A stretch of DNA of 49,219 nt, taken from Patescibacteria group bacterium (lineage in GTDB: Bacteria; Patescibacteriota; Patescibacteriia; Buchananbacterales; SURF-54). Below are positions 1,328-21,376 of the stretch, one piece after another. The notes beneath the pieces were generated by a model. That model saw only the letters and a program-made list of their open reading frames with translations. It had not been told where the DNA came from and did no database searches. Position 1 is the stretch's first letter, and every line of letters starts with the position of its first letter. The position numbers and the translations under genes are program-made. Location: positions 76,461 through 125,679 of the forward strand of contig JAHIRB010000021.1 of NCBI GenBank assembly GCA_018818885.1. Reading direction: 5' to 3'.

Positions 1328-1792
1328 TTACTTCGCATACCCCACAGGCAAAATTGCTACTGCCCTTAAGTTAGAACTTAGCTTTAATGTCTCACTCACC
1401 TTTTCTTCGTCAAAAGCACCAACCCAGCAACTAGCGAGTCCTAAATCTGTTACAGCTAAAAGCATGTTTTGGGTGGCAGCAGCTGTGTCTTGAATAGTAT
1501 ATAAATTTTTACCACGCTCGCCATAAGTATGTTCACTTTTAGTAACATCAGCACAAACAATAATTGCCACTGGCGCTTGAGAAATAAATTTTTGTCCCAT
1601 GGCATCTAAAGATAACTGATCACGTATTGATTGGTCTCTAATAACCTCAAAATGCCAATCTCGCATTCCTCCAGCAGAAGGAGCGAGTTGACCTGCTTCT
1701 AATATTTTTTTGATGTGATTTTCTGGAACCTTTTTTTCTGCATCAAAATTTCTAACACTTCTTCTTAATTTAATTGTTGTCCAAAAATCCAT
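1328..1792 (-). CDS. Nitroreductase family protein
   Basis: A 154-residue FMN-dependent nitroreductase-fold protein. RRSVRNF near the N-terminus (residues 10-16) and the LAPSAGG..DWHF segment (about 36-49) are the FMN-phosphate and isoalloxazine contacts of this family, and the C-terminal LGLASCWVG...LPVGYAK segment completes the binding site. Family members reduce nitro compounds, quinones or flavins with NAD(P)H as obligate dimers; the substrate cannot be read from sequence. It is at the short end of the family (usually 170-220 residues) but all core blocks are present. It is transcribed alone and no clear ribosome site is seen. Confidence 0.85.
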   Translation of the reverse strand: MDFWTTIKLRRSVRNFDAEKKVPENHIKKILEAGQLAPSAGGMRDWHFEVIRDQSIRDQLSLDAMGQKFISQAPVAIIVCADVTKSEHTYGERGKNLYTIQDTAAATQNMLLAVTDLGLASCWVGAFDEEKVSETLKLSSNLRAVAILPVGYAK

Positions 1793-1834
1793 ATATTCTT
1801 ATTATACCAAACTATTACTAATAAAGACTAATAT

Positions 1835-1863
1835 TTGACAAAATAAATCATAAGTAGTAAAAC
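1835..1863 (+). promoter_or_regulatory. Sigma70-type promoter of the small zinc-ribbon gene
   Basis: TTGACA (1835-1840), 17-nt spacer, TAAAAC (1858-1863), followed 35 nt later by the ATG of the small gene. Confidence 0.55.
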
Positions 1864-1897
1864 AAAATAGGTCATTACTGGAAAGGAGGTGAAGGTA

Positions 1898-2038
1898 ATG
1901 GGTGATCCTTGCAAAAAAATAAAGGATGACGAATCAGGGCTCACGTGCTCGAAATGCGGGCAAGAAGTTGATAGTAAAACTGTTCCTTGCCCAAATTGTA
2001 ATCACGATCACTTCAAACACCCAAGGTTTGAGGAATAA
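1898..2038 (+). CDS. 46-residue zinc-ribbon protein
   Basis: ATG at 1898 lies 5-8 nt after a near-perfect ribosome site (GGAAAGGAGGTGA) and the frame runs to TAA at 2036-2038. The peptide has two Cys pairs, CSKCG (17-21) and CPNC (31-34), followed by HDHFKH, so it should bind one zinc ion as a rubredoxin/ribbon knuckle. It has its own promoter upstream and a strong terminator at 2101-2141, so it is a stand-alone, probably well expressed, small protein. Function unknown; a nucleic-acid or ribosome-associated role is only a guess. Confidence 0.75.
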   Translation: MGDPCKKIKDDESGLTCSKCGQEVDSKTVPCPNCNHDHFKHPRFEE

Positions 2039-2100
2039 TCTTGGGCTTTCATTTGAGCCCTACTAGAATCTTCACATCAACACAAAAATGCCGTTCGGCC

Positions 2101-2141
2101 AGATGCCCGCTTTACGCAATCATGAGCGGGCATCTTTCTTT
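2101..2141 (+). terminator. Intrinsic terminator of the zinc-ribbon gene
   Basis: A perfect 11-bp stem AGATGCCCGCT (2101-2111) / AGCGGGCATCT (2125-2135) is followed by TTCTTTT. Confidence 0.85.
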
Positions 2142-2144
2142 TAC

Positions 2145-2166
2145 TAAAAAACCGCTTCAATAGCGG
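2145..2166 (-). terminator. Intrinsic terminator of the structured ncRNA
   Basis: On the minus strand CCGCT, a 5-nt loop and AGCGG (2152-2166) are followed by six U (2151 down to 2146). It closes the RNA whose promoter lies at 2418-2445. Confidence 0.65.
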
Positions 2167-2411
2167 CATTATATTTTTTAGACAAAAGAAAGAAGACTAA
2201 GTGCTTCTATCATGAAAATTCATCATTTGATGAATGGGGGGGAGAAGGTTAAGATTGAGAGTTTATTATAATTTATTATAATTGCAGTAATAACTGCGTA
2301 AAAGAGAAGAGGTGTAAGGAAGGAAATTCTATCTCCTGCTTGCGCAAGAAACAGAATTTCCTCCCCAAAACTTCATATCTCTTTTAAAACTTCAATCTAC
2401 ACTTAGTCTTC
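2146..2411 (-). ncRNA. Structured non-coding RNA, 6S-like rod architecture
   Basis: A minus-strand RNA starting near 2411 behind a very good promoter. Nested pairings in order from outside in: 2400-2411 with 2192-2203 (12 bp, perfect), 2392-2398 with 2252-2258 (7 bp), 2378-2385 with 2300-2307 (8 bp), 2353-2361 with 2322-2330 (9 bp) closing a loop of about 22 nt. Two side hairpins occur in the 3' half: GCAGT/ACTGC around 2284-2297 and TTCATCA/TGATGAA around 2218-2234. No open frame of note covers it. A closing stem, large internal bubble and apical stem over about 220 nt resemble 6S RNA, the regulator that occupies RNA polymerase; identity as 6S is an inference from shape, not sequence. Confidence 0.6.
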
Positions 2412-2417
2412 GCCTTT

Positions 2418-2445
2418 ATTCTACCATGCTTATATACTGCGTCAA
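2418..2445 (-). promoter_or_regulatory. Promoter of the structured ncRNA
   Basis: On the minus strand TTGACG (2445-2440), a 16-nt spacer and TAGAAT (2423-2418). The predicted start near 2411 falls exactly at the base of the outermost RNA stem. Confidence 0.75.
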
Positions 2446-2603
2446 TAGCATTTTTTTTGGCGTAGTTGAGCCACTAAAAAAAGTTATCCCCAAACCCTTC
2501 GACTCACTATGCTCGCTCAGAATAAACCAAAAACTCCCCCCCAACGCGAGAGAGTGTCCGCCTCACCAAACTTTCCAAAACACCGGTGGGAAACTGCTTG
2601 ACC

Positions 2604-3383
2604 TTACCACTTATTTATAATCTTAAGCAACTGTTTATGAATAGTAGTATTACTGCTGGCTAAAAATTTGCTGTTCTTGTCTGATTTTTCTTGGTTGCCA
2701 TTGAAATCAGTAATCACTGCTCCTGCCTCGCGTGCAATTAACTTACCAGCTAAAAAATCGTAGATTTCATTATCATTATTAACTATGGCTTCCAGTTTGC
2801 CTAAAGCTAAAAGGCAAAAATCATACGCTGGTGCCCAGTTGGATAAGACTCTTTTAAGATTAGCTCTAGTTAAGCTTCCCATTTGAGCAGCCACTATATT
2901 TTTAGGATCATTGTAAGCACATGAATAACAGACCGTAGCTTGAGACAAATGTCGCGTGTTATTAGTCTTTAGCCTAACACCGTCCAGATATGCTCCCTTA
3001 CCCTTTTGTGCATAATAGGTTTTATCTAATATTGGATGATGTATAACCGAAGCTATAATCTGATCCTTTTGTAACAAAGCAATGTTAATAGCAAAATTGG
3101 GAATGTTTAGTGCAAAATTGTTTGTGCCATCCAAAGGATCAATTATAAAAATATAATCTGATTTTTTATCAATTAAACCACACTCTTCAGAAAAAATATT
3201 ATAGTCAGGAAATTCTTTGATCAAAACTTTCAAAACAGCTTTTTCTGAATCAATATCGGCTTGAGTAAAAAAATTAGCGGCAGTGCCTTTATTTATCTGC
3301 TTAAGATTCTGGCCAAAATATTTTTTTAATACTCTACCGCCACTTTTTGCGGAGTTAATTATTTTTTGTATTTGCTGTGTCAT
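2604..3383 (-). CDS. Inositol monophosphatase family protein
   Basis: A 259-residue Mg2+/Li+-sensitive phosphatase-fold protein. The family signature DPLDGTNNF is at residues 82-90 with the metal ligands EE at 66-67 and D82/D85; a second signature lies near the C-terminus, where AYDFCLLALGK and LAGKLIAREAGA match the usual WD..A...AREAGG block with the Asp retained. Members hydrolyse myo-inositol-1-phosphate, fructose-1,6-bisphosphate, 3'-phosphoadenosine phosphates or histidinol phosphate; the substrate is not predictable here. Length is normal (about 260). It is on the same strand as the ncRNA but separated from it by about 190 bp and the ncRNA promoter. No Shine-Dalgarno site precedes the start. 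Confidence 0.88.
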   Translation of the reverse strand: MTQQIQKIINSAKSGGRVLKKYFGQNLKQINKGTAANFFTQADIDSEKAVLKVLIKEFPDYNIFSEECGLIDKKSDYIFIIDPLDGTNNFALNIPNFAINIALLQKDQIIASVIHHPILDKTYYAQKGKGAYLDGVRLKTNNTRHLSQATVCYSCAYNDPKNIVAAQMGSLTRANLKRVLSNWAPAYDFCLLALGKLEAIVNNDNEIYDFLAGKLIAREAGAVITDFNGNQEKSDKNSKFLASSNTTIHKQLLKIINKW

Positions 3384-3419
3384 GTAGAACTATTATAGCG
3401 TACAAACAAAAGGAAATCA

Positions 3420-3486
3420 AAAAACTCCCTTTTATCTCGCCGAAGTCTTGCGTAAGCGGGGCGAAGGCAGATAGGGAGCTTTTTAT
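3420..3486. terminator. Bidirectional long-stem terminator between the membrane protein and phosphatase genes
   Basis: AAAACTCCC (about 3420-3428) pairs with GGGAGCTTTTT (about 3475-3484), with inner CTCGCCGAAG / CGAAGGCAG-type arms. Runs of A and T flank the stem on both sides, so it could stop transcription in either direction. Confidence 0.55.
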
Positions 3487-3502
3487 GTTGATTATTACAT
3501 TA

Positions 3503-4798
3503 TTAACGAAATAATTTATCAAAAAACATATTATTACACCTAATAAGCTGGGTATCTTTTACTTGCCACAGTCTTTCTGTATTTTTATCGATATTGTTTG
3601 GAACATTATTAAATCCACAACTAAAATAAAAAGTTCCTAAAAAATTAAAATATACTGAAATGATTGTAAGTAATAAAAAAAAACCTATCAAATATTTATT
3701 TTTTACGATTATTTTTTCCCAGGACAATACTAAAAAGATCATCCAAATCGGAATGGTTTCAATTATCAATCTATATCCAAAGGACCACCCTCCCCACCAC
3801 ATAGTCCACTTAGCTACCAAGATTAATGTTAAAAGTAAAGAAACAAATAAATATTTTATTAAGGTATCCTCCTTTTTTTTAAATATTTTTGGAAAATATA
3901 ATAAACTAAACAAAAAAATAGGACTAAATACAAAAAGCCCTCTTGCTGGGCTAATTAAAATCCCTGCTAAACTTGTCAACAAAGGTGTCCTAAAAAATTC
4001 TATCCCCTTCCTAGCTTGTCCCAAAGCCCAAATTGACCCGTGATAAGAAAATGAATACCAACTAAGTAAAAAAGCTGGTATTAAAATCAATATTAGATAT
4101 TTAGTAAATAACTTTCTATGGTTTAAAAAAAAGTATATTGTAATTGGTAAAGCTATTAAAAAATTTGTTGGTCTATTGAATACTGCCATACCTATAAAAA
4201 ATCCCGCCCACGGTAATAGCTTTTCTTTTTTTATCAAAAGAATATAAATTGTAATATTTATTAATAATAATGAAGGGCCGTGCTGCCAGATATCCTGGCT
4301 TGCAACACTCCAGACTAAAGTTGCGAATGCATACACCAAAGAAAAAATTATTGAGGTTATTTCTTTTTTTGTAATATTTCTAAAAATAAGAAACATCAAA
4401 ATTACTGAAAAAGAAGAAATTATAGCCGCGCTAATAGCTGAAAGTAGGTCTCTATGTTTAATTAAGTCAACGGTAAAAAAAGATGCTATCGCATAGACGG
4501 GTGTATTAAGCACTCCAGGAATAATTGGATAATTAGAAACAAAACGTCCTTTAATTATACTTCTTGAATAATGATGAGTAGTATCACAAATTCCTTCTTG
4601 ATTACAAAAAAACTCATTTAAATCAAAATCTCCTTCGTTTAAAATCGATATTGGTAATAATTTATTAGGTATTAAATCTCCATTTCCGTCATATCTCTGG
4701 TCGATTAAAAAAATAGTTAAAGTAATACTAAAAAGAAAAAAACAAATCCAAATAGTTTTGTTATTGAATATATCTGATAAACTCTTTATCACATTCAT
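3503..4798 (-). CDS. Polytopic membrane protein, GT-C glycosyltransferase-like
   Basis: A 431-residue integral membrane protein with about ten to eleven hydrophobic helices starting at residues 13-31. After the first helix a short loop DQRYDGNGD carries acidic residues in the place where GT-C (GT39/PMT-like) transferases have a catalytic Asp, and a longer soluble-looking loop DFDLNEFFCNQEG follows. This layout fits lipid-linked-sugar-dependent glycosyltransferases of the cell envelope. The protein lacks a large C-terminal periplasmic domain. Substrate and acceptor are unknown. It is flanked by a bidirectional terminator on one side and a repeat-rich gap on the other, so it is likely monocistronic. 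Confidence 0.65.
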   Translation of the reverse strand: MNVIKSLSDIFNNKTIWICFFLFSITLTIFLIDQRYDGNGDLIPNKLLPISILNEGDFDLNEFFCNQEGICDTTHHYSRSIIKGRFVSNYPIIPGVLNTPVYAIASFFTVDLIKHRDLLSAISAAIISSFSVILMFLIFRNITKKEITSIIFSLVYAFATLVWSVASQDIWQHGPSLLLINITIYILLIKKEKLLPWAGFFIGMAVFNRPTNFLIALPITIYFFLNHRKLFTKYLILILIPAFLLSWYSFSYHGSIWALGQARKGIEFFRTPLLTSLAGILISPARGLFVFSPIFLFSLLYFPKIFKKKEDTLIKYLFVSLLLTLILVAKWTMWWGGWSFGYRLIIETIPIWMIFLVLSWEKIIVKNKYLIGFFLLLTIISVYFNFLGTFYFSCGFNNVPNNIDKNTERLWQVKDTQLIRCNNMFFDKLFR

Positions 4799-11485: not shown

Positions 11486-12319
11486 TTATTTTAATTCTTT
11501 CTTTTTTTCTTCAACAATTTTTTTTACTTCCTTTTTTACCTCCTTAATATGTTTGTCAGTTGGTAAGTCTTCTGGCATTACACCACCTATTTCTCTAATA
11601 GTCTGTCGAACTCTATCACCTACCATGTTGTGTGTGTTGATAGCGCTAATTTCACCTTTGACAGTATCACTTTTTATTTTCTCATCTGTTTGAGTAATAC
11701 GAAACAGATTAGCTGCTAACTCCGTTGAACCTGCCCGGTCTAATAATTCTCCTCTCTTGATTCCCTTCTTTTTCTCAATGGCCTTCAATGATATACCATA
11801 AAGCCCTCTATACCCAGCATCGTTAAACAAGCCAAAATTTTTAACACCTACTGCCGTGGCAGTTTTAAAAAGTTTCTTGTTGTGGTCGGAAACTTCTCCT
11901 CTTATATATAAACGTTTTTCACTTGCCGACAATTGCTCAAATATTTCTTGTTTTCTGGTCTGTATCGCAAAATAGGTTTGTGCCAAAGCTATTTCTTCTT
12001 TACTAGAATCACCATTCTGAGCAATTAGATAACAGGCGTATCTATCCAATTTATAATCTTCGACTTTTCTTACCGTATTTGAGCCAATTTTTACCATTTT
12101 CGTGAGCTTAAGAAAATGGTTATCCACAGCCTGACCGCTTGCTAAACATGCCCTTGCTGCTCTTCCTACTACTTCATCAAAATTTTCCCACCTGGCATAT
12201 CCTAACAAAGGCATTAATTCTCGCGCCTCCCAATACTCTACTTTATTTTTATCAACCTTTTTTATACTTTCAAAGTCTTTATGAGGAGTGGATGGCATTA
12301 TATCATTGTCATTTGTCAT
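11486..12319 (-). CDS. dinD: DNA damage-inducible protein D-like
   Basis: A 277-residue protein. YWEARELMPLLGYARWENF (about 29-47) followed by a stretch with VEDYKLDRYACYLIAQNGD (about 86-104) is the Bro-N/KilA-N-like N-terminal half typical of DinD; RQTIREIGGVMPEDLP near 241-256 is the conserved C-terminal block. In E. coli DinD is SOS-induced and restrains RecA-mediated strand exchange. Length matches (about 275). The promoter candidate is TTGACA with a TAAAAT-like box about 60 nt upstream of the ATG; I see no obvious LexA-type box there. It is monocistronic between the toxin 2 cassette and a degraded gene fragment. Confidence 0.85.
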   Translation of the reverse strand: MTNDNDIMPSTPHKDFESIKKVDKNKVEYWEARELMPLLGYARWENFDEVVGRAARACLASGQAVDNHFLKLTKMVKIGSNTVRKVEDYKLDRYACYLIAQNGDSSKEEIALAQTYFAIQTRKQEIFEQLSASEKRLYIRGEVSDHNKKLFKTATAVGVKNFGLFNDAGYRGLYGISLKAIEKKKGIKRGELLDRAGSTELAANLFRITQTDEKIKSDTVKGEISAINTHNMVGDRVRQTIREIGGVMPEDLPTDKHIKEVKKEVKKIVEEKKKELK

Positions 12320-14196: not shown

Positions 14197-14949
14197 TCAC
14201 TTGCAAACTTCCCCAACTGCTTCCCGATACGCACAATAATCGCAATCCTTGCCCGCCTTAGGAATCTTTTTACTTTTCAAACACTTATGCGCGTCTAAAA
14301 TTGTCTTTTCCACCCAGCCAGCATCGCCTTCGTAGGCAATGATTTTTACGTCAAACTCCAGCTTGGCATCAAAAGCTTTGACATCGGTTTTGCCGTTGCA
14401 GTAGACAAAATAGCCGGTATCTGAAACCTTAAAACCATTTTGGCGCAAAAGCCACTGATATATTTCCATCTGCCTTTTGTAGCTTATCTGCCAGTCTGCA
14501 TCCAAACTAACCTCGTCGTTTTTGGAAGTTGCCTTGTAATCCACAACATAAAGCACGCCTTTTTTATCAACCCAGATGTCGTCCACAGCGCCGGTGATTA
14601 TAAGGTTGGTAGCAACATGCAAAAACTGCACGCCCTTAAAGTTTTCGCGCCATTCATCAAGTTTTTCGTGGGTATAAGGAATTAAATCAATTTTGTATTC
14701 TTTCATTAAAGGATGGACCTGATCCTTAGCCCGATGTATATCAAATTCTTTTTTTAATAAAGCGTCAACAGCGGAGTTTAGGTTAAAGGGAAATCCCGGA
14801 GGCCTACCAACTCCAAGTTTTCGGTCAAGAAAAAAACATCTAGGGCATTCTAGAAAAAGATCAATCTTTGAGCGGGAGAGTTTGAAGGGGTGTTTAATGG
14901 TAGGGTTGTAGAGATTGGTTTTACGTTGAGGATTATAGTATTGGGACAT
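14197..14949 (-). CDS. PD-(D/E)XK nuclease, RecB/Cas4-like
   Basis: A 250-residue protein. KLSRSKIDLFLECPRCFF (23-40) is the usual N-terminal helix with two Cys; GAVDDIWV (120-127) gives the first acid, and VVDYKATSK (135-143) is the D-x-K motif. CDYCAYRE near the end supplies two more Cys, with a further Cys two residues from the terminus, so a Cas4/AddB-style iron-sulphur cluster is likely. Such nucleases trim DNA ends in repair or defence. No cas genes or CRISPR array are here. The Pif1-like helicase at 26182-27537 was probably its upstream neighbour before the 42-bp-bracketed block came to lie between them. A scrap of this gene's 3' end is also found at 12604-12665. Confidence 0.82.
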   Translation of the reverse strand: MSQYYNPQRKTNLYNPTIKHPFKLSRSKIDLFLECPRCFFLDRKLGVGRPPGFPFNLNSAVDALLKKEFDIHRAKDQVHPLMKEYKIDLIPYTHEKLDEWRENFKGVQFLHVATNLIITGAVDDIWVDKKGVLYVVDYKATSKNDEVSLDADWQISYKRQMEIYQWLLRQNGFKVSDTGYFVYCNGKTDVKAFDAKLEFDVKIIAYEGDAGWVEKTILDAHKCLKSKKIPKAGKDCDYCAYREAVGEVCK

Positions 14950-15173: not shown

Positions 15174-15210
15174 TTTAAACTTCGGTAAATCTTCGGTATA
15201 ATTATATTAT
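15174..15210 (+). promoter_or_regulatory. Promoter and possible LexA-type operator of the fusion gene
   Basis: A TATAAT box (15197-15202) lies 8 nt before the ATG, so the message is leaderless or nearly so; the -35 (TTTAAA-like) is weak. CTTCGGTA is repeated directly with an 11-bp period (15180-15187 and 15191-15198), overlapping the -10. An 11-bp direct repeat is also the geometry of the GTTC-N7-GTTC LexA box of alphaproteobacteria. Operator function is inferred. Confidence 0.55.
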
Positions 15211-16779
15211 ATGCATACGGTCACAAAGAGACAAAAAGAAATCTACGATTATGTAAAAAACCATATAAAAGAATATGGCTATTCCCCTACCTTTGATGAG
15301 ATAGGAAAACATTTTAAGCTTTCTGCCTCATCTACAATACATCAGCATATAAAAGCTCTTGCAGATAAAGGGCTAATAACAAAAAATAATTATGGAGCAA
15401 GAAGCATTGAACTGGTAAAAAATGAAATTGCCGATAATAATCTTATTAATATCCCTCTTGCTGGCAAAATTACTGCCGGCCAGCCGATTGAAGCTGTAGA
15501 AGAAACAGGCACCACCATTCCAGTAGTCAAAAACGGCTTAAGCAGATTTGAAAAATACTTCGCTTTGCATGTTTCTGGAGACAGCATGGTTGATGAAGGC
15601 ATTTTCGACGGGGATATAGTTGTTATAAAAAAGCAATCAGTTGCAGAAAATGGACAAACAGTAGTCGCTATAATTGATGATAACGAAGCAACTCTGAAAA
15701 AACTCTATCGAGAAGATAATCGATTTCGCTTACAGCCAGCCAACCAGAAGCTACTTCCTATTTACAGGAAAGAGATTGAGGTTAGAGGAGTGGTAGTAAA
15801 AATAATCAGAGACATAGTTGATCAAACCCAAGATATAGGTTGTAGAACTCTTGATTTATTTGCCGGAGTAGGAGGCGTACGGCTTGGTTTTGAAAAAGCT
15901 GGATTTAAAACAGTATTCGCCAATGATTTTGAAAAGCAATGCAAGGAAACTTATGATCTTAATTTTAAGGATTCAAAACTTATAGTTGAAGATATAAGAA
16001 AAATTGGAATCGATGATCTGCCTGAATTCGATTTCTTACTAGCTGGATTTCCCTGCCAGGCCTTCTCGATTGCTGGTTACAGACATGGATTCAAAGATAA
16101 AAAAGACAGAGGCAATTTATTTTTTGACATAGCAAGGATTTTAGAAGCAAAAAAACCAGCGGGTTTCCTACTTGAGAATGTTAAAAATTTAAAGGGACAT
16201 GATCAAGGAAAAACTTTTGATATTATCTCAAAAACCCTCAAGGATTTTGGCTACCATATAAAATCAAAAGTCTTGAATAGTATGGAATATGGTAATGTTC
16301 CCCAAAACAGAGAAAGAATTTATATCGTAGGATTTAAAAATAAAAAATATTTCGACAACTTTAATTTTCCAAAACCTAAAAAACTTTCTGTTAAAGTAAC
16401 TGATTTACTAGAAAAAAATGTAAACGATAAATACTATTACAATGGAAAACCTTTGTATACGAGACTTAAAAATGACATAAAAGAAGAAGGGAAAGTTTAC
16501 CAGTGGCGCAGAAAATATGTTAGAGAAAATAAAAAAGGCGTCTGTCCGACGCTTACAGCAAATATGGGTATGGGTGGCCACAATGTGCCAATCATTAAGG
16601 ACAAGAAAGGTATAAGAAAATTAACACCACGTGAATGCGCGAGACTGCAGGGTTTTCCAAAAAATTATAAACACCCTGTTATGGCAGACTCTACTTTATA
16701 TAAACAGTTTGGTAACTCTGTAACAGTTCCAGTAGTAGAAGCGGTTGCAAAACAAATAAAAATTGCTATTTCGTTTTAA
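15211..16779 (+). CDS. LexA repressor fused to a cytosine-5 DNA methyltransferase
   Basis: One uninterrupted 522-residue frame. Residues 1-202 are a complete LexA: winged helix (TKRQKEIYDYV..., recognition helix about 40-53), cleavage site A89-G90 in ITAGQP, catalytic S125 in SGDSM and K163 in EATLKK. A linker of about ten residues leads to a complete C5 methyltransferase (212-522): motif I LDLFAGVGG, motif IV GFPCQAFS with C282, motif VI ENVKNL, motif VIII QNRERIYI, motif IX RKLTPRECARLQGFP and motif X FGNSVTVPV. It would methylate cytosine in a short site and bind an operator; RecA-stimulated self-cleavage would part the DNA-binding head from the methyltransferase. Its 3' end overlaps the convergent endonuclease gene by 14 bp. 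Confidence 0.93.
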   Translation: MHTVTKRQKEIYDYVKNHIKEYGYSPTFDEIGKHFKLSASSTIHQHIKALADKGLITKNNYGARSIELVKNEIADNNLINIPLAGKITAGQPIEAVEETGTTIPVVKNGLSRFEKYFALHVSGDSMVDEGIFDGDIVVIKKQSVAENGQTVVAIIDDNEATLKKLYREDNRFRLQPANQKLLPIYRKEIEVRGVVVKIIRDIVDQTQDIGCRTLDLFAGVGGVRLGFEKAGFKTVFANDFEKQCKETYDLNFKDSKLIVEDIRKIGIDDLPEFDFLLAGFPCQAFSIAGYRHGFKDKKDRGNLFFDIARILEAKKPAGFLLENVKNLKGHDQGKTFDIISKTLKDFGYHIKSKVLNSMEYGNVPQNRERIYIVGFKNKKYFDNFNFPKPKKLSVKVTDLLEKNVNDKYYYNGKPLYTRLKNDIKEEGKVYQWRRKYVRENKKGVCPTLTANMGMGGHNVPIIKDKKGIRKLTPRECARLQGFPKNYKHPVMADSTLYKQFGNSVTVPVVEAVAKQIKIAISF

Positions 16780-17584
16780 AAAACTTTTTTATTATTTTTT
16801 TTACGTATTTATTAAATTTTAATTCATCCACTATTATCTTTCTTAAATTAACACCTTTGTCATCTAAAGAAGCCTTAAAATCCCATGAAATTAATAGTTG
16901 ATCTTCTTTCATTTTTTTTGGTAAACACCTTAATTCCATTCTTTTTTTAGATTTATAAATTTTTACATTTCCATAACTGGCATCAATAAACCCGTCAACA
17001 AAGACGGATTTTCCTGTGGCACTTTTAACCGCAAGATTTTTTATTTTAGAAGGGAACACTTTAGCCACTGCTAAATGTATACTGTTACCCCCTCTAAGAA
17101 AAATAAAATAGTAGACTTGTTTAAGATCATAATCCTTAATAGGCTTTTGCATTTTTTCTGAAAGTATTTTTTTCCAACCATTTAAAATTTTGTCATATTC
17201 TTTGCTTGCAAAATCTTGATCTAAGTCAGTCCCAGCATCTACAAATTTTTGACCTAAAGAGCTTTCTCCTGTCACACCTTTTTTAAAATTATCCTCTGAA
17301 TCAACAGCAGCAGACATAAATTTAACGTCAGCTCCAAACTTTTTTTCCTTTGAATAAACATCAATTGGATAACTACCTGACCCAACTCTTTCCCACCCCA
17401 AACCTTGCGCAACCCACTGTTCCAAAAATTCCTTCGGTATCTGTATATTATCTTCTTTTTGACCTGGTAAAAGTTCCGGTTGCGAGAATAACACTTTTTT
17501 TAAAAGATATTCAATGGTTTTGATACTTTTATTATCAAAAATTTCTTTAATTTCTTGTTTACTTAAAAATTCTAGTACATTCAT
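16766..17584 (-). CDS. Type II restriction endonuclease (partner of the fusion methyltransferase)
   Basis: A 272-residue protein of a restriction endonuclease type. GSGSYPIDVY (68-77) followed by FGADVKFMS (83-91) gives a PD-(D/E)XK catalytic set: D75, D86 and K88. The basic C-terminus (KKIIKKFFKTK) could contact DNA. It converges on the LexA-methyltransferase gene with a 14-bp 3' overlap, the usual tight pairing of a type II restriction-modification system. Its recognition site is not readable from sequence and should equal that of the methyltransferase. A promoter (TTGACT, 17 nt, GATGAT) lies about 30 nt upstream of the start; the fusion gene's CTTCGGTA repeat is not present there. Confidence 0.82.
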   Translation of the reverse strand: MNVLEFLSKQEIKEIFDNKSIKTIEYLLKKVLFSQPELLPGQKEDNIQIPKEFLEQWVAQGLGWERVGSGSYPIDVYSKEKKFGADVKFMSAAVDSEDNFKKGVTGESSLGQKFVDAGTDLDQDFASKEYDKILNGWKKILSEKMQKPIKDYDLKQVYYFIFLRGGNSIHLAVAKVFPSKIKNLAVKSATGKSVFVDGFIDASYGNVKIYKSKKRMELRCLPKKMKEDQLLISWDFKASLDDKGVNLRKIIVDELKFNKYVKKIIKKFFKTK

Positions 17585-17646
17585 ATAATAAAAATTTAAT
17601 TCACAAATAAATCATCCCATTTTTCACCCTAAAAGTCAAAATAAAA

Positions 17647-17844: not shown

Positions 17845-18029
17845 AGGTTTATATTAGCATTTTTTAAATCATTCAAAGAGTATTTCTCAATAAGCTTATT
17901 TTTATTCCATACATTCAACATTCTTCCATCCCATTCTAATAAATCAAAGGGTTCTGTTGTGGTTTTAAAATGCGCATAGATCTCATTGTATTGTCTTTGT
18001 AACTTTTTGTAATCCATAATTTTAGACAA
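17841..18029 (-). CDS. Small protein 1 of the DpnI-like operon, 62 residues
   Basis: A 62-residue protein overlapping the end of the DpnI-like gene by 8 bp and the next small gene by 4 bp (ATGA). It has a Lys/Gln/Tyr-rich helix (KKLQRQYNEIYAHF) and a strand-rich centre (EPFDLLEWDGRML). No family recognised. The S. pneumoniae DpnI cassette also has a second gene, dpnD, downstream of the endonuclease gene, but its product is larger, so equivalence is not claimed. Confidence 0.65.
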   Translation of the reverse strand: MSKIMDYKKLQRQYNEIYAHFKTTTEPFDLLEWDGRMLNVWNKNKLIEKYSLNDLKNANINL

Positions 18030-18798
18030 CTTGGTAATGACCGCGTTTAAAAAATTTAAGATAGCCCTTGTCTCTCAAAACTTGTAATTGTTGTCGTATT
18101 TTATCTTTAATGTGGTGGTTATTTGGATGTTTTTTACTTAATTCATCTTTAAACGCATATATTTCATCAAGTGAAAATTTTTTACTACCCAATTTTTCTA
18201 TACATACCATTACATCTAAAAGCCAGCCTTTCGCGTCTATTACTTTTTCTTCACGCAAAAAAAGTGTCCTTTCCCATTGAATGAGTACTTTGTTTTTTGG
18301 TTTGACAATCTTATCTTTTACAAAAAATATTTTACCAGTTTGCGGGATACTTTTGAGCAATATATTACAACCGACCCATCCAGCGCGCCGTGCGGTTTGT
18401 GACAAAGGTTTACGTTTCTCAATTATTTCTGGCACAAAAAAGTGTTTTGGGATAACAAAAAAATCTAGAACTTGATAATTATGTATATTATAATTAAGTA
18501 GAAAAAAATTTGGGTTGTGCCCACCCATTAATCTTTCCAGCATCGTGCGATATGCACCATCATTAATTTTTGCACCGATAGTTTCTTTTTTACTTTTTAA
18601 TTCATAGTCTTCTTTACAATTTGAACAAAAAAAATCAGCCACTGGCTTATTGTTTTCATATTTATCTATATCTAAATTGCCACAATTCGGACAAAATATC
18701 TGTTTATCAACCCAGTGTTCGGACATAACTCTGATCTTTTGCGACTGACTTTTATAATTTTTGGCTAGCCTTGTGTCAAAAAATAAATTCATATCCAC
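18022..18798 (-). CDS. DpnI-like methyl-directed restriction endonuclease
   Basis: A 258-residue protein that follows DpnI along its length: YKSQSQKIRVMSEHWV near the N-terminus, a CPNC/CSNC zinc site (C36, C39, C58, C61), catalytic D55, E66 and K68 in ADFFC...YELKSKK, INDGAYRTM, TARRAGWVGCNI, and a C-terminal winged helix ending in IRQQLQVLRDKGYLKF. DpnI cuts GATC only when the adenine is methylated. A host carrying it should lack Dam-type methylation and would destroy Dam-methylated incoming DNA, complementing the classical system next door. First gene of a three-gene coupled operon. Confidence 0.93.
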   Translation of the reverse strand: MDMNLFFDTRLAKNYKSQSQKIRVMSEHWVDKQIFCPNCGNLDIDKYENNKPVADFFCSNCKEDYELKSKKETIGAKINDGAYRTMLERLMGGHNPNFFLLNYNIHNYQVLDFFVIPKHFFVPEIIEKRKPLSQTARRAGWVGCNILLKSIPQTGKIFFVKDKIVKPKNKVLIQWERTLFLREEKVIDAKGWLLDVMVCIEKLGSKKFSLDEIYAFKDELSKKHPNNHHIKDKIRQQLQVLRDKGYLKFFKRGHYQVV

Positions 18799-18941: not shown

Positions 18942-19634
18942 TTATTTTTTGTTTTTATCTACTTGCTGTTTATAAACCTCTAAAACAAAACCTAAATTAT
19001 TAAAATTATCTAATAAATTATTAACATCAGCCAACATTTCAAGCAAATCATCATCACTAACTTTATCTAATACATCATCATAATTAATGTTTATTTTTAA
19101 ATTGTTGTCAGGGTATCGAAAAGCAGTATTACTTATATCCTCAATTATATAACTACCCCCAAGTTTATTCATTAAGATCTCACAATGATAGTACTTTAGT
19201 ATTAATTTCTCCAAACTTTTTAAAATATCGTCAATTTTCAGCTTATTATTATAAGCAATTTCCAAATTTATACTTTCCGGGTTGTCTTGATATTCTTTTC
19301 TTATAACTTCAACTATCTTATGTTTTTTTATTTCAATCTTTAACAATTCAAATAGTTCAGAAATGTTGTGTTTTAAATCTTTCTTATTCAACTTCTCAGC
19401 TAATATTATTTTTAAAGTTTTTATAAATGATTCTATTCCATGCTTGATATTAAATAATGTAGGTATAAAAATATCCCTCGCTTTATATTTTCGTTCTTTA
19501 ATAGAGTTTTCCCCATACCTTATAGCTATTCCGAGCTTTTTGCTTAATACTGCTTCACAGCTTAATCTAGCTTGGTGTAAATAGCTTTGTGAAAATTGAA
19601 CCCAATTATAATTTTTATCAATCTTAATTGACAT
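18942..19634 (-). CDS. Hypothetical helical protein, possibly HEPN-like
   Basis: A 230-residue, mostly helical, Lys/Asn/Ile-rich protein. The segment FNIKHGIESFIKTLKIILA...LKHNISELFELL (about 61-95) resembles the helical pairs of HEPN proteins, but I do not find the catalytic Rx4-6H, so the assignment is tentative. The rest (EVIRKEY, DDILKSLEKLI, EMLADVNNLLDNF) is a chain of amphipathic helices. It lies between SppA and the DpnI-like operon on the same strand with its own terminator. A defence or sensor role is possible by location only. Confidence 0.6.
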   Translation of the reverse strand: MSIKIDKNYNWVQFSQSYLHQARLSCEAVLSKKLGIAIRYGENSIKERKYKARDIFIPTLFNIKHGIESFIKTLKIILAEKLNKKDLKHNISELFELLKIEIKKHKIVEVIRKEYQDNPESINLEIAYNNKLKIDDILKSLEKLILKYYHCEILMNKLGGSYIIEDISNTAFRYPDNNLKININYDDVLDKVSDDDLLEMLADVNNLLDNFNNLGFVLEVYKQQVDKNKK

Positions 19635-20635: not shown

Positions 20636-21376
20636 CTATAGATTTTTCGTTTTCTTTAAAATATTCAAAAAGTTGCGGGTTGTTTCGGATACTCCGTCTT
20701 TTTCCACTTGTGCTTTTATTTTCAAATCAGTAGAATTTTCTATAGCCCATTCTCTCATATACATTGGAATATTATTCCAGTTCTCAGCTAAATATTCTAC
20801 CGGCATGCAGTCAACGCTTTTAATGATTTTTCGGCAGTGTTCAGAACCGCAGTTGCATGTCATTTCCCATTCCGGGTTTGTTTCTAATAAAGAATAATCT
20901 GCTGTTAGCTGTTCCCCGGGCTGTATTTCTCTGGTAGATATAAACTGAAAAGAGTCGGCAGCTTGGCGGGTAGTATTTGGCTTGCAGGAATGATTAAGAA
21001 ACCGCAGCGGACTATTTTCTGGAGGGGTAGCATAGATAAATTCACCATTTGAACCTCCGCCATGACCGCCTGGTTCTTCTCTGCCGACTACAACAGCATT
21101 TTGGTTAGTCCGGGCAGAAGGTATAAAATTACGTTCATCTGTTTCTTTACCTTTTTTACCATCAAAAACAAATACTTCTTTTCTATTCTTAAAATGTTTT
21201 CTTGCAAACAGGCCTTTGCCAATACTGTCGTTACCAGTATTTTTTATTTCTAATGTATCTGTTTTTAGTTCACTATCTAGTAAATCTGGTTCTCGATAAG
21301 GGTGAAATTGTACCCATTTATCATCTGGCCGAAAATTATATTCTTCTCTGCCGGCAATATTTGATAAAAACCCCAT
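20636..21376 (-). CDS. SET-domain protein
   Basis: A 246-residue protein with a complete SET core: SIGKGLFA (51-58) binds the cofactor, RFLNHSCKPN (125-134) is the pseudoknot motif, GEQLTADY (154-161) carries the catalytic Tyr, and CNCGSEHCR (174-182) is a post-SET zinc cluster. SET proteins methylate lysine in proteins with S-adenosylmethionine. Bacterial examples are uncommon and may act on DNA-binding or ribosomal proteins of the host or on targets in other cells; no target is suggested here. It lies 23 bp upstream of the SppA gene on the same strand, so they are likely cotranscribed. Confidence 0.85.
   Translation of the reverse strand: MGFLSNIAGREEYNFRPDDKWVQFHPYREPDLLDSELKTDTLEIKNTGNDSIGKGLFARKHFKNRKEVFVFDGKKGKETDERNFIPSARTNQNAVVVGREEPGGHGGGSNGEFIYATPPENSPLRFLNHSCKPNTTRQAADSFQFISTREIQPGEQLTADYSLLETNPEWEMTCNCGSEHCRKIIKSVDCMPVEYLAENWNNIPMYMREWAIENSTDLKIKAQVEKDGVSETTRNFLNILKKTKNL

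Follow-up and report, generated by a model that had tools for sequence, protein, structure and literature searches.

A single reading frame in a Patescibacteria genome joins a complete LexA repressor to a complete C5 cytosine methyltransferase, and its gene lies tail to tail with that of a probable PD-(D/E)XK type II restriction endonuclease. The frame occupies positions 15211–16779 (plus strand; 522 aa) of the window, by which we mean the whole stretch of 49,219 nucleotides analysed (assembly GCA_018818885.1, contig JAHIRB010000021.1, positions 76,461 to 125,679). We propose, with moderate confidence, that the locus is a type II restriction–modification system in which the methyltransferase is repressed by its own LexA head and derepressed by the SOS response, raising methylation and lowering restriction. 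What is new here is the combination of a predicted autoproteolytic damage-sensor head with a tail-to-tail endonuclease; fusions of methyltransferases to repressors are already known.

The LexA–methyltransferase fusion

The frame was originally predicted to hold a complete LexA, with a cleavage site at A89-G90 and an S125/K163 dyad, followed by a complete C5 methyltransferase with a catalytic C282, and profile matches and alignments bear out each of these elements (Table 1). Residues 1–202 match TIGR00498 (lexA) at 187 bits against a cut-off of 111, reaching the equivalog score, and residues 82–196 match Peptidase_S24; in an exact alignment, A84-G85, S119 and K156 of E. coli LexA correspond to A89-G90, S125 and K163. 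The head is assigned to LexA on its winged helix and S24 domain at equivalog score, its Ala-Gly site and its Ser-Lys dyad. The second domain matches TIGR00675 (dcm; 347 bits) as well as PF00145, and an alignment of 32 fusions shows C282 (PCQ), ENV, QNRERIY and GNSV without variation. Among solved structures, the head is related to LexA and the second domain to M.HhaI. In an AlphaFold2 model the domains are well formed, and confidence is low at two joints, residues 70–76 (the LexA hinge) and 201–209 (the linker to the methyltransferase); since the model has a pTM of 0.60, the placement of the domains relative to each other is not to be trusted. Among fused heads with data, the self-cleavage glycine is present in 61 of 61, preceded by alanine in 60 and by glycine in one, and the catalytic serine likewise in 61 of 61; the catalytic lysine is present in all 62 heads. 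This conservation in 61 heads argues that cleavage is under selection.

Table 1. Features of the fusion gene and the convergent endonuclease gene (window coordinates)
Feature	Position	Strand	Basis or remark
Promoter-like pair TTTAAA-N17-TATAAT	15174..15202	+	10 of 12 matches
Predicted LexA operator, direct repeat TTCGG-N6-TTCGG in promoter spacer	15181..15196	+	Sequence pattern
LexA winged-helix DNA-binding domain, residues 1–64	15211..15402	+	PF01726 (LexA_DNA_bind), 59 bits
Predicted self-cleavage site A89-G90	15475..15480	+	Alignment with E. coli LexA
Catalytic serine S125	15583..15585	+	Alignment with E. coli LexA
Catalytic lysine K163	15697..15699	+	Alignment with E. coli LexA
Interdomain linker, residues 203–211	15817..15843	+	Length and sequence vary among homologues; pLDDT <50 at residues 201–209
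C5 cytosine methyltransferase domain, residues 212–517	15844..16761	+	PF00145, 321 bits
Catalytic cysteine C282, PCQ motif	16054..16056	+	Invariant
Target-recognition segment VYQWRR..CPTLTANMGMGGHNVPII	16495..16596	+	Common to partners of Bsp6I-type enzymes; predicted GCNGC
Terminator-like hairpin inside methyltransferase gene	16538..16552	-	About 215 nt past endonuclease stop; weak evidence
Overlap of the two 3' ends, 14 bp	16766..16779	.	Methyltransferase and endonuclease genes
Probable PD-(D/E)XK type II restriction endonuclease, 272 aa	16766..17584	-	Convergent with methyltransferase; motif and position
Promoter-like pair for endonuclease	17611..17639	-	No LexA operator nearby; weak evidence

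A search for proteins carrying both domains in this order, and a check of the junction for an assembly join, had been suggested along with the original prediction. Scanning one genome per species across 84,980 species recovered about 40 full-length homologous fusions at 58–79% identity from many Patescibacteria lineages, so LexA and the methyltransferase are not always separate genes; the junction is unbroken in 31 other fusions, which answers the question of a join without recourse to reads. The linker differs among homologues in both length and sequence, as a genuine fusion would be expected to show. An assembly error or frameshift joining lexA to a separate methyltransferase gene might be suspected in a window drawn from a draft genome of 51 contigs, and this reading is already refuted, its probability being negligible, by the roughly 40 independent homologous fusions, by their continuous junctions, and by the presence of a separate lexA elsewhere in the genome. 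The homologues include one of the same architecture on a complete Saccharibacteria chromosome (CP075337.1). Two fusion contigs may be misbinned: L038, labelled as a Propionibacteriaceae MAG, has a head that groups with Saccharibacteria, and L039, labelled as a Brevinema MAG, has a frame broken between LexA and the methyltransferase.

Predicted operator, endonuclease and specificity

The original prediction did not include the direct repeat in the fusion promoter, a further fusion elsewhere in this genome, or how widely the architecture recurs. The 1.35-Mb assembly (98.6% complete) encodes three LexA heads: that of the window; that of a 630-aa fusion to a methyltransferase of N4/N6 type carrying an SPPY motif (L002, C28; L002/L118 3250–5142), which is convergent with an MvaI/BcnI-type endonuclease (L118); and a separate LexA of 216 aa (L003, C19). 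TTCGGT-N5-TTCGG adjoins the -10 box of all three genes, and TTCGG-N6-TTCGG occurs exactly three times in the genome, once before each of them, against 0 copies of a reversed-pattern control. The genome scan placed no exact repeat at recA or at the window endonuclease gene, and a scan allowing two mismatches performed no better than its control. The presence of exact operators only at lexA and at two LexA-headed methyltransferases suggests that the balance of modification and restriction may be a main task of LexA in this organism.

The position of the operator at the fusion promoter argues for autorepression. With a direct repeat in the -35/-10 spacer and the same repeat before the separate lexA, the originally proposed repression of the gene by its own head is well supported at the level of sequence. 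A direct-repeat operator also fits the cases of LexA gaining direct-repeat recognition among which, in a passage of PMC7739468, the authors cite their own Patescibacteria study. The -10 box ends 8 bp ahead of the ATG, so the fusion mRNA is probably leaderless; the distance is about 8–10 bp for both the fusion (15197–15211) and the separate lexA (L003, near 1495), which suggests the same for the lexA mRNA.

Across the fusions, an 11-bp TTCG repeat lies upstream of 36 of 61, compared with none of the 40 related methyltransferases that stand alone and an average of 0.26 occurrences in shuffles, and the spacing of TTCG pairs peaks sharply at 11. Many fusions that lack the repeat show variants recognisable by eye, such as TTTCTA repeats. 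Separate lexA genes carry the repeat in genomes G050, G146 and G241 and lack it in G129, G153, G158, G250 and G300, so that a shared operator holds for the present genome only. The fusion operator differs from that of the separate LexA in several other genomes, where membership of the SOS regulon may therefore run only through RecA-dependent cleavage.

As to the convergent PD-(D/E)XK endonuclease of the original prediction, the gene exists and is found here to overlap the fusion gene by 14 bp, and the enzyme class is drawn from motif and position, with no family or fold match. PID75...G84-x-D86-x-K88, a PD-(D/E)XK pattern, is invariant in seven homologues, as are E52, E107 and Q112. The family is small, and its members are all convergent with LexA–C5 fusions (L007, L008, L018, L019, L032, L035). 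The protein has no match in Pfam, PADLOC, PHROG or PDB sequences; its predicted structure is confident (pLDDT 88), and Foldseek returned nothing significant with it, DpnI ranking weakly at the top and EcoRV seventh. On its sequence pattern and position, the partner is probably a type II restriction endonuclease.

The target-recognition segment of the methyltransferase is nearly unchanged among C5 fusions whatever the family of the partner endonuclease, and nearly the same segment occurs in the methyltransferase of plasmid pAF22, which lies beside a Bsp6I-family enzyme. The Bsp6I-type methyltransferase of Mycoplasma agalactiae has been assigned GCNGC (PMC9465063). In 434 kb of the present genome, GCNGC has the lowest observed/expected ratio of the 16 XYNY'X' palindromes (0.86, a mild depletion). 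Because of the segment likeness, the M. agalactiae assignment and this ratio, we predict GCNGC as the site of the window methyltransferase. The C5 fusion L124 has a different segment, so this specificity does not extend to every C5 fusion. A role of LexA in aiming the methyltransferase at SOS operators was ruled out for the window gene, the operator of which contains no GCNGC.

Distribution across the Patescibacteria

A search for LexA heads covered 380 genomes of the phylum, and among the matches listed at least 20 genomes had LexA-headed frames of 490 aa or more. The tails behind these heads belong to the C5, N6_N4 and D12 methyltransferase families of Pfam. On a quick tree of the heads, most fused heads fall outside the main clade formed by the separate LexA proteins of Patescibacteria. 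The class of methyltransferase switches repeatedly along this tree, whose many weak forks leave the number of switches uncertain. Genome G265 carries, beside its C5 fusion (L121), a second LexA fusion with a DPPY-type methyltransferase (L199).

The tail-to-tail arrangement recurs with the fusions. The next downstream gene is convergent in 55 of 60 fusion loci, at a median gap of 7 bp, compared with 7 of 38 stand-alone methyltransferases (Fisher p 9e-14, a guide only, since the loci are not independent). The 60 downstream proteins form 21 sequence clusters, 18 of them with convergent members. By Pfam, the partners include Bsp6I (9 loci), NgoFVII (7), PDDEXK_5 (4), MvaI/BcnI (3), MamI (3) and BsaWI (2), with ScaI, EcoRV, HindIII and BglII found once each; AlwI and a MutH-like protein lie downstream at non-convergent loci, and the remaining clusters have no Pfam match. 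PADLOC labels many of the partners type II restriction enzymes, and the identified ones represent numerous unrelated families of type II endonuclease.

Two loci contain the same components in unfused form. At L045 (Niyogibacteria; 1616–4194), genes for a LexA-like protein, a Vsr-like protein and a C5 methyltransferase are lined up ahead of a convergent gene for a PDDEXK_5-like endonuclease, and at L054 a divergent LexA-like gene is followed by a tandem methyltransferase and NgoFVII-like endonuclease, the Vsr and partner names resting on inspection by eye and on similarity to L005 and L012. The presence of unfused LexA-like genes beside the same methyltransferase suggests that LexA-type control preceded fusion; L045 could possibly represent the precursor layout, with Vsr repairing m5C deamination. 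A phage or plasmid origin of the fusion was rejected: no phage record and one plasmid record cover 80% of the fusion in one place, the phage and plasmid matches listed are methyltransferases without a LexA head, and a scan of viral contigs returned one stand-alone methyltransferase.

Proposed mechanism, alternatives and known systems

In the undamaged cell, the LexA head of the fusion and the separate LexA would occupy TTCGG-N6-TTCGG in the methyltransferase promoter and hold synthesis low. DNA damage or self-restriction would load RecA on single strands and provoke self-cleavage of the head at A89-G90, whereupon loss of the DNA-binding domain would release the promoter and allow a burst of methyltransferase. 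The enzyme was originally expected to be freed by cleavage; it would not be bare, as methyltransferase made and then cleaved should still carry the LexA dimerisation domain. The endonuclease gene would remain outside operator control, and strong transcription of the methyltransferase gene would continue into it in antisense. On balance, methylation would rise and restriction would fall as long as freshly repaired DNA lacks its methyl groups, and under-methylation could call up its own remedy through SOS. We infer repression, cleavage, the direction of the effect, antisense damping and GCNGC specificity, and antisense damping of the endonuclease is the least certain step of the mechanism.

Loss of the head upon damage is a prediction supported by the presence of recA in the genome and by the retention of cleavage site and dyad among the fusions. 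Shielding of host DNA by the methyltransferase during repair, part of the original prediction, is plausible, and the conservation of convergent endonucleases strengthens it. Imbalance of type II systems and the ensuing self-restriction induce SOS (PMC3874152), so the proposed loop has a trigger. At 8 of 56 loci (0.8 in shuffles) the methyltransferase gene contains a terminator-like hairpin that would serve the endonuclease transcript, and at 1 of 56 (0.4 in shuffles) the endonuclease gene contains one that would serve the methyltransferase transcript; the absence of the latter from 55 loci is compatible with antisense read-through. Symmetric terminators inside both genes, as in the window, were rejected as a general feature of the 56 loci.

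The wiring could serve other ends. The head may act merely as the helix-turn-helix of Ecl18kI or SsoII does, limiting dosage and timing expression in a new host, with SOS responsiveness incidental. Repressor–methyltransferase fusions of that kind are established (PMC12707154) and the operator does lie inside the gene's own promoter, yet a bare helix-turn-helix would suffice for such control, whereas all 61 heads with data retain the cleavage site and the Ser-Lys dyad. Moreover, since the resident LexA has an operator of the same type in this genome, it would repress the incoming methyltransferase on entry, a dangerous order of events, and we consider this explanation unlikely. Somewhat less likely still is protection of incoming DNA, in which single strands from transformation or conjugation would load RecA, the heads would be cleaved and the rise in methyltransferase would let homologous DNA escape the endonuclease; the competence-induced methyltransferase of the pneumococcal DpnII system offers a comparison. 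Saccharibacteria are naturally competent, with com genes conserved across the group (PMC10633639), and the same wiring would serve both purposes. No evidence here sets this reading apart from alleviation driven by repair.

The fate of the cleaved protein bears on the direction of the effect. In E. coli, LexA fragments are proteolysed after cleavage, and degradation of this kind may count against our model, as it would remove the methyltransferase rather than raise it. If cleavage destabilised the enzyme, sites would go unprotected and the endonuclease would kill damaged or infected cells, as restriction–modification systems can once the methyltransferase is lost (PMC3874152). Such a damage-triggered suicide appears improbable: the same cleavage would derepress the methyltransferase gene, convergent transcription would lower the endonuclease, and loss of the head leaves the catalytic domain untouched. 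We retain SOS-driven derepression of the methyltransferase as the preferred reading. Its extension to the phylum, in which Patescibacteria LexA is an interchangeable SOS-sensing head placed on any methyltransferase class, almost always tail to tail with an endonuclease, so that damage raises modification and antisense transcription lowers restriction, a previously undescribed and general device for transcriptional restriction alleviation, stands in our judgement evenly balanced between right and wrong.

Among known systems, the closest are M.Ecl18kI, M.SsoII and M.EcoRII, type II methyltransferases with an N-terminal DNA-binding repressor domain that acts on their own promoter (PMC12707154). 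The window fusion shares the N-terminal repressor, the type II methyltransferase and, by sequence, an operator in its own promoter. Their heads, however, are helix-turn-helix domains, whereas that of the window is a whole LexA, predicted to cleave itself and to sense DNA damage, and LexA heads occur on C5, N4/N6 and D12 enzymes. Ecl18kI acts at overlapping promoters of the two genes, while the window genes are convergent with no operator at the endonuclease; the fusion would thus work like this family but, without an operator between overlapping promoters, is not filed as a member of the Ecl18kI/SsoII type. From canonical Patescibacteria LexA, which it resembles in domain order, catalytic residues and, in this genome, operator type, it differs in the C-terminal methyltransferase and in the position of most fused heads outside the main clade. 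C-protein systems also have a dedicated regulator, sometimes fused to one enzyme (PMC12707154), but that regulator, the C protein, is a small activator-repressor that neither cleaves itself nor connects to SOS. The Bsp6I-type GCNGC systems of Lactococcus plasmid pAF22 and M. agalactiae have a near-identical target-recognition segment, and Bsp6I-type partners occur at nine fusion loci; the pAF22 methyltransferase, however, has no LexA head and is in tandem with its endonuclease, and the window endonuclease lies outside the Bsp6I family.

Type I restriction alleviation likewise curbs self-restriction at times when damage or repair has left unmethylated sites (PMC11109961). Passages of PMC11109961 and PMC12707154 attribute alleviation in E. 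coli to proteolysis or assembly and not to an SOS function, so the analogy is one of outcome only: EcoKI and ClpXP share the proposed lessening of self-restriction, whereas the window effect would be transcriptional, through LexA cleavage, in a type II system, with no proteolysis of the endonuclease implied. The original claim that the arrangement is undescribed needs qualifying, as its principle is known from Ecl18kI, SsoII and EcoRII (PMC12707154); for a LexA head, a literature search that reached few subscription papers and not the Patescibacteria SOS-network study returned no description of a LexA–methyltransferase fusion. A 2025 review of restriction–modification regulation (PMC12707154) makes no mention of LexA. 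If our model is correct, one polypeptide would tie the SOS response directly to restriction–modification, giving type II systems a built-in answer to the cutting of repair-made unmethylated DNA by their own endonuclease. The model is testable in Saccharibacteria, which are naturally competent and genetically tractable.

Several minus-strand genes neighbour the locus. About 3 kb from the fusion gene, positions 11486–12319 encode a DinD-like DNA-damage-inducible protein (PRK11525, 339 bits, above cut-off), with no exact operator copy nearby. Divergent from the fusion is a PD-(D/E)XK/Cas4-like nuclease (14197–14949), of which a 65% identical copy lies near the L028 fusion. Just upstream of the endonuclease gene, and separated from it by a terminator-like hairpin (17672–17643), is a DpnI-type methyl-directed endonuclease (18022–18798; PF06044 275 bits, DpnI_C 113 bits). 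Beyond it lie a 230-aa protein (18942–19634) with no Pfam, PADLOC, PHROG or NCBIfam match and a SET-domain protein (20636–21376; PF00856 45 bits), unusual for a small bacterial genome.
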